From assembly GCA_024278555.1 (NCBI GenBank), contig JAJRSX010000177.1, forward strand, positions 1 to 10,660: a stretch of DNA of 10,660 bases. The letters run 5' to 3'. Source of the DNA: a bacterium (GTDB lineage: Bacteria > CG2-30-53-67 > CG2-30-70-394). Made by a program: the position numbers and the translations under genes. Below the pieces are notes generated by a model, which was given only the letters and a program-made list of their open reading frames with translations, was not told the origin of the DNA and did no database searches. Positions 4,293 to 4,414 of the stretch are shown piece by piece (position 1 is the stretch's first letter; each line of letters opens with the position of its first letter).

Positions 4293-4300
4293 GGCCGCGC
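4282..4300 (+). terminator. Perfect 8-bp hairpin with the yqaA stop codon as loop
   Basis: GCGCGGCC and GGCCGCGC flank TGA (4290-4292), the stop codon of the DedA-like gene. There is no T tract. The hairpin may be an mRNA 3' end stabiliser or a pause site. Its last three bases (4298-4300) are also the outermost three bases of the leader arm that pairs with the tRNA trailer at 4400-4414, so full formation of both is mutually exclusive at those bases. Confidence 0.45.
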
Positions 4301-4414
4301 AGACCCGAGGGGCGGGGCGTAGCGCAGCCTGGTAGCGCACCTGCTTCGGGAGCAGGGAGTCGGAGGTTCAAATCCTCTCGCCCCGACCACCTCGATCCTC
4401 CCCTCGGGTCTGCG
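4298..4414 (+). other. 15-bp inverted repeat bracketing tRNA-Pro(CGG)
   Basis: CGCAGACCCGAGGGG (4298-4312) abuts the 5' end of the tRNA. Its exact reverse complement CCCCTCGGGTCTGCG (4400-4414) starts ten bases after the encoded CCA. In the precursor these would form a long helix stacked on the acceptor stem with a 3'-side bulge. Confidence 0.85.
4313..4389 (+). tRNA. tRNA-Pro(CGG)
   Basis: The 77-nt cloverleaf has acceptor stem CGGGGCG/CGCCCCG, D stem GCGC/GCGC, anticodon stem CCUGC/GCAGG, loop UUCGGGA with anticodon CGG (4347-4349), the same T arm as tRNA-Pro(GGG), and encoded CCA (4387-4389). It reads CCG codons, which should be frequent in this GC-rich genome. It lies 20 bases after the yqaA stop. 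A promoter at 4242-4270 points at it, and a perfect 15-bp leader/trailer inverted repeat flanks it. Confidence 0.96.

Follow-up and report, generated by a model that had tools for sequence, protein, structure and literature searches.

Why should a single bacterial tRNA gene be bracketed by two long and exactly complementary sequences, when tRNA maturation in bacteria is usually pictured as RNase P cleavage and 3′ trimming acting on single-stranded flanks? The question is raised by the tRNA-Pro(CGG) gene of the window, the whole 10,660-nt stretch of DNA that was analysed, in which positions 4298–4312 are the perfect reverse complement of positions 4400–4414, giving 15 bp with both arms on the + strand. 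This complementarity between leader and trailer, claimed in an earlier, sequence-only reading of the locus, proved to be exact when the arm sequences were compared, and an independent, unbiased search for inverted repeats across the window recovered the same pair, delimiting the arms as 4298–4315 and 4397–4414. The locus consists of the following parts, with conservation given relative to G001, the other genome of the genus.

4282..4300, + strand: predicted 5′ hairpin of 8 bp whose loop is the yqaA stop codon TGA, found in RNAfold folds (arms 4282–4289/4293–4300); stem kept in G001.
4298..4312, + strand: left arm on the leader side, CGCAGACCCGAGGGG, touching position 1 of the tRNA; 14/15 nt the same in G001.
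4313..4389, + strand: tRNA-Pro(CGG) with an encoded CCA (ARAGORN; Rfam RF00005, 64.7 bits); identical in G001.
4390..4399, + strand: 10-nt spacer cctcgatcct from the CCA to the right arm, unpaired in predicted folds; 10/10 nt the same in G001.
4400..4414, + strand: right arm on the trailer side, CCCCTCGGGTCTGCG; 15/15 nt the same in G001.

The length of the helix set it apart from every reference that we compared. The longest perfect run in 20,000 dinucleotide shuffles of both 35-nt flanks was 13 bp, and leaders paired with the trailers of other tRNAs of this genome gave 11 bp or less in ~2,160 combinations. Of the 47 tRNAs in the genome, the remaining 46 reached at most 8 bp between their own flanks, and 142 tRNAs from other genomes at most 12 bp, which bears out the earlier claim that such a length is unusual for a single tRNA gene. 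Because shuffled flanks, mixed flanks and other tRNAs all stay below 15 bp, the helix is beyond chance, and it is rare.

When positions 4277–4440 were folded with RNAfold, as the sequence-only reading had proposed, the helix formed on top of a cloverleaf that stayed intact (−92.2 kcal/mol, z −3.5), and the 15-bp duplex by itself was predicted at −33.9 kcal/mol. The minimum-energy fold gives the outermost 3 nt of that arm on the leader side (4298–4300) to the 5′ hairpin, which leaves 12 bp of the helix together with extra outer pairs; in the leader, predicted pairing runs from position −1 through −12 (up to −15). The stacking on the acceptor stem that had been suggested is predicted in part: the helix would be continuous with the stem along the 5′ strand only, the 3′ strand being broken by a 14-nt bulge made up of ACCA and the 10-nt spacer. 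For the 5′ hairpin at 4282–4300 as a real structure, its 5′ half being coding, the folds offer weak evidence; its counterpart in G001 has a stem with one G-C to G.U change and a loop changed from TGA to GTA.

Two other identities of the repeat were rejected. An intrinsic terminator does not fit, as there is no U run past 4414, the arms lie 87 nt apart and the terminator scan lists no site there. A mobile element or dispersed repeat is ruled out by the arm core, which was found at these two places only in either genome of the genus.

We then compared the locus across the phylum, of which eight genomes were examined; G001 is the sole other genome of the genus and the remaining six belong to another family. 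In G001 the local gene order around tRNA-Pro(CGG) is the same, and arms, spacer and tRNA are identical at 116/117 nt, the sole change being C4298 to T, which turns the outermost G-C pair into G.U. The adjoining yqaA gene differs at 22/102 four-fold sites (22%), and given this divergence the probability of seeing no more than one change in 40 flank bases is P = 7e-4. Among 38 orthologous tRNA pairs, tRNA-Pro(CGG) ranked first in flank conservation, with 14/15 leader and 25/25 trailer positions kept against medians of 9 and 17. In the alignment, divergence begins right past the right arm, the boundary of conservation thus coinciding with the edge of the helix. In the relatives' flanks, whose alignment had been proposed as a check for covariation, the arms are kept in G001 with a single G.U change, and no double covarying change was found. 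As double-sided compensatory changes are absent from the data, in which two genomes bear the helix, we infer pairing of the conserved arms from their exact complementarity and from the conservation boundary.

Outside the genus, the flanks of tRNA-Pro(CGG) vary and keep no complementarity in any of the six other phylum genomes wherever both flanks were readable, and a homologous helix elsewhere in the phylum was therefore rejected. Such variation is what the sequence-only reading had said would count against it; within the genus it was not seen. Judged from these genomes, the helix is a genus-level feature on which covariation cannot be demonstrated, and it is dispensable for tRNA-Pro(CGG) in general. 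In the genome G179 the tRNA is 100% identical, yet its flanks are free of long flush pairing, with a best flush run of 4 bp. When genome contigs were searched with the YqaA protein, just two loci came up, both from distant Nitrospirae and neither close to a tRNA-Pro gene.

The local order is HU/IHF-like protein, MerR regulator, tRNA-Pro(GGG), protein-isoaspartate methyltransferase, YqaA/DedA-like VTT-domain protein, tRNA-Pro(CGG) and TPR protein, with the yqaA stop 20 nt upstream of tRNA-Pro(CGG). A promoter within yqaA had been postulated, and by eye we found one candidate.

4242..4270, + strand: candidate promoter within yqaA, TTGCTT (4242–4247), 17 nt, TATACA (4265–4270).

It carries TG-T ahead of the second hexamer, and its predicted transcript start lies near 4277, upstream of both arms. 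Both hexamers are kept in G001, with a changed spacer, but a strict sigma-70 scan gave no match at 4242–4270. A start near 4277 and one further upstream should alike yield a precursor that contains both arms.

Some further features of the surrounding sequence were observed. In G001 (L065, G001:C127; compare window 4290–4321) the yqaA stop is lost by a TGA to GTA change, and the frame would read on across the left arm as far as a TAG within tRNA-Pro(CGG), so that RNase P cleavage would leave a yqaA message with no stop codon. Between the tRNA and the TPR gene, positions 4443–4511 hold a 22-codon open frame (MDRVRHKYRQEADDARTAWRGR), read by eye, which is open in G001 too and whose stop overlaps a GTG start (CTAGTG); it is possibly a leader peptide, or else due to chance. 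An inverted repeat at 3307–3437 has 36-nt arms that are 94% complementary (TTCACCACGGAGACACAGAGGGCACAGAGAACTGCA) and 59 nt apart, and it is probably a dispersed repeat element, since similar sequence seems to be present again near 5330–5420. Another inverted repeat at 534–618, with 24-nt arms around GGTAGGAGCGGGTTGCACCCGCGA, is REP-like.

The second tRNA-Pro gene of the window also has a flush helix, although a shorter one.

2166..2258, + strand: tRNA-Pro(GGG) with its flush helix (tRNA 2174–2250; leader 2166–2173, ttcggatc; trailer 2251–2258, gatccgag).

This helix has 7 Watson–Crick pairs and one U.G, and its pairing z-score of −4.26 was the strongest among all tRNAs tested. G001 retains it, with a single bulged base and a C-G in place of the U.G. 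In G004 and G006 (L073, L077), where the gene cluster is the same, the tRNA-Pro(GGG) trailer has a different structure, a near-perfect ~27-bp hairpin (attagggacctttccc...).

A set of 380 tRNAs taken from many bacteria contained, at tRNA-Pro outside this genus, 15 flush helices of at least 5 bp against 7.3 expected, a weak excess of short helices, and no excess was found at the non-Pro tRNAs of that set. A general rule of leader–trailer helices at tRNA-Pro (C1:G72) was nevertheless rejected: although Pro accounts for most extremes, the energy-based pairing z-scores are alike, with means of ~0 for 156 tRNA-Pro and −0.1 for 162 other tRNAs and no overall tendency. In E. coli, proK and proL have no leader–trailer helix and proM has only a non-flush 7-bp match. 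The closest parallel came from an unrelated bacterium (G020; L186/L292, G020:C34), in which the tRNA-Pro(GGG) of a GGG–CGG tRNA-Pro pair has a 12-bp flush helix with the right arm 8 nt after the CCA. Its congener G395 (L288) has no such helix and a 9-nt spacer instead, and the right arm of G020 is therefore apparently an inverted copy of the leader, inserted between the two tRNA-Pro genes. This comparison suggests template-switch (inverted-copy) mutation, a single mutational step, as the origin of such helices.

What, then, might the helix do? Our main reading, to which we give a probability of about one half, is that selection has kept it as a helix closing the precursor of tRNA-Pro(CGG), where it delays RNase P and 3′ trimming until it is opened endonucleolytically. 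Function by selection is favoured because the arms are kept, because conservation ends at the helix edge and because tRNA-Pro(GGG) has a flush helix in both species. The arms would clamp leader to trailer, leaving the CCA plus 10 nt as a bulge. In this clamped state the leader next to the cleavage site would be paired, and RNase P should be slowed; the trailer would be buried in duplex, and 3′ exonucleases, which a trailer in duplex is known to resist, should be stopped. With RNase P slowed and the trailer buried, release would probably start with an endonuclease, either RNase III cutting within the helix or an RNase E/G-type enzyme cutting in the single-stranded bulge. Against this reading, classic RNase III substrates are longer than these 15 bp, and the bulge may have an influence. 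The genome encodes RNase III (TIGR02191, 229 bits, G000:C33), the nuclease that the sequence-only reading had suggested the helix might recruit, as well as two RNase E/G proteins and a type A RNase P RNA. Most likely the helix would set the order and route by which the tRNA is released from a transcript common to the neighbouring genes, and it may also help the cloverleaf to beat misfolds induced by the leader. Formation of the helix in the cell, the delay of RNase P and the identity of the opening nuclease are all three points that we infer from sequence and from known enzymology. The earlier reading is thus confirmed as to the sequence and has support in part as to its meaning.

Published work on the enzymes is in line with this scheme. 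In E. coli, RNase P is slowed by pairing that lengthens the acceptor stem, which the enzyme must unwind (PMC9433436), and leader stem-loops inhibit bacterial RNase P, with flanking stem-loops imposing an order on tRNA processing (PMC10731613). The effect on RNase P access foreseen in the sequence-only reading agrees with this inhibition by stem-extending pairing (PMC9433436, PMC10731613) and is, at this locus, a prediction by analogy; 15 GC-rich pairs should form a much stronger block than the published cases. RNase E, for its part, enters tRNA precursors directly (PMC3985628).

The main rival is that the helix is a functionless by-product, left when an inverted duplication (template switch) in the ancestor of the genus copied the leader backwards into the trailer, and now awaiting decay. 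The G020 helix, which looks like an inverted-copy insertion and is missing in G395, makes a one-step origin without selection possible. However, the arms have outlived a divergence of ~22% at four-fold sites, and flanks that are the best conserved of 38 tRNA pairs, with conservation halting at the helix edge, are hard to reconcile with sequence under decay, and we regard this explanation as unlikely. A template-switch origin may well be compatible with the data; it is the absence of function that they oppose.

Alternatively, the trailer may act as a guard of folding, sequestering a G-rich leader (GAGGGG beside CGGGGCG) that otherwise misfolds the tRNA, so that the cloverleaf can form. In predictions that leave out tertiary contacts and co-transcriptional folding, the tRNA by itself had a native acceptor pairing of 0.97; adding the 35-nt leader lowered this to 0.24, and leader and own trailer together gave 0.58, compared with a median of 0.20 for the leader combined with the trailers of other tRNAs. 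For tRNA-Pro(GGG) the trend was alike and stronger (0.00 to 0.97). Yet a shuffled right arm gave 0.95, above the 0.58 of the real one, the gain for tRNA-Pro(GGG) of G001 was just 0.12, and several helix-free tRNAs were predicted to misfold equally badly. Since the shuffled arm outdoes the real trailer, the case for a folding role is weak; as the sole function it was rejected, a shuffled right arm equalling or beating the real one, and guarding the fold is an improbable account of the helix. A secondary role in folding is possible on these models.

It is very unlikely that each arm is conserved for its own sequence, say as a protein-binding or promoter site, and that they pair incidentally. Two genomes with no compensatory change leave sequence and pairing conservation inseparable, but chance does not account for 15 nt of exact complementarity that abut the tRNA, neither genome has a further copy of the arm core, and conservation stops at the helix boundary.

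A selected closing helix has partial counterparts among known systems. The leader–trailer helices of pre-16S and pre-23S rRNA are RNase III processing stalks of >30 bp (16S) and 27 bp (23S) (PMC10250234). As in these stalks, complementary flanks bracket a stable RNA and a long helix would close the precursor, but the rRNA stalks are longer and have covariation and proven RNase III sites, whereas the present helix has 15 bp, surrounds a single tRNA and is known from its sequence. The E. coli RNase P anti-determinants (PMC9433436, PMC10731613) likewise place pairing beside the cleavage site and lengthen the acceptor stem. These, however, are 2 bp formed with the RCCA, or stem-loops within one flank, whereas here 15 bp would form between the leader and the distal trailer and leave the RCCA free in a bulge. 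In the metY-nusA-infB operon of E. coli, according to the accounts that cite the original work, RNase III frees the tRNA (Regnier and Grunberg-Manago 1989, cited in PMC5371410, PMC6511841). As here, a tRNA is found beside protein genes and is possibly co-transcribed with them, and the proposed releasing enzyme is a double-strand nuclease. By those accounts, however, the RNase III sites of that operon are downstream of the tRNA, in the stretch from metY to rimP, whereas here the helix joins both flanks and RNase III is a proposed agent. The tRNA-Pro(GGG) of G020 is similar in layout, with the left arm flush at position 1, the right arm beyond the CCA and perfect pairing (12 bp there), but its sequence and lineage are unrelated and its absence from the congener makes it probably recent. 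In the way it would work, our helix resembles rRNA processing stalks or the anti-determinants of RNase P, and it is a proven member of neither class.

A bolder version, which we put forward as speculative and rather doubtful, would make it a selected, rRNA-like stalk on a single tRNA: a 15-bp lock that holds tRNA-Pro(CGG) back and has to be opened by a double-strand nuclease, which would make supply of this tRNA dependent on RNase III and tie it to expression of the flanking genes, and such locks may recur at tRNA-Pro through inverted-copy mutation.

In the literature we found no long leader–trailer helix on a single bacterial tRNA; the search covered few subscription journals and is therefore weak evidence of absence. 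If the main reading is true, a conserved long helix that joins both flanks would provide a natural precursor whose two ends cannot be processed independently. Such a precursor would be a ready test of how labour is split among RNase P, RNase III and RNase E, and the case of G020 hints at how helices of this kind can emerge in a single mutational step.
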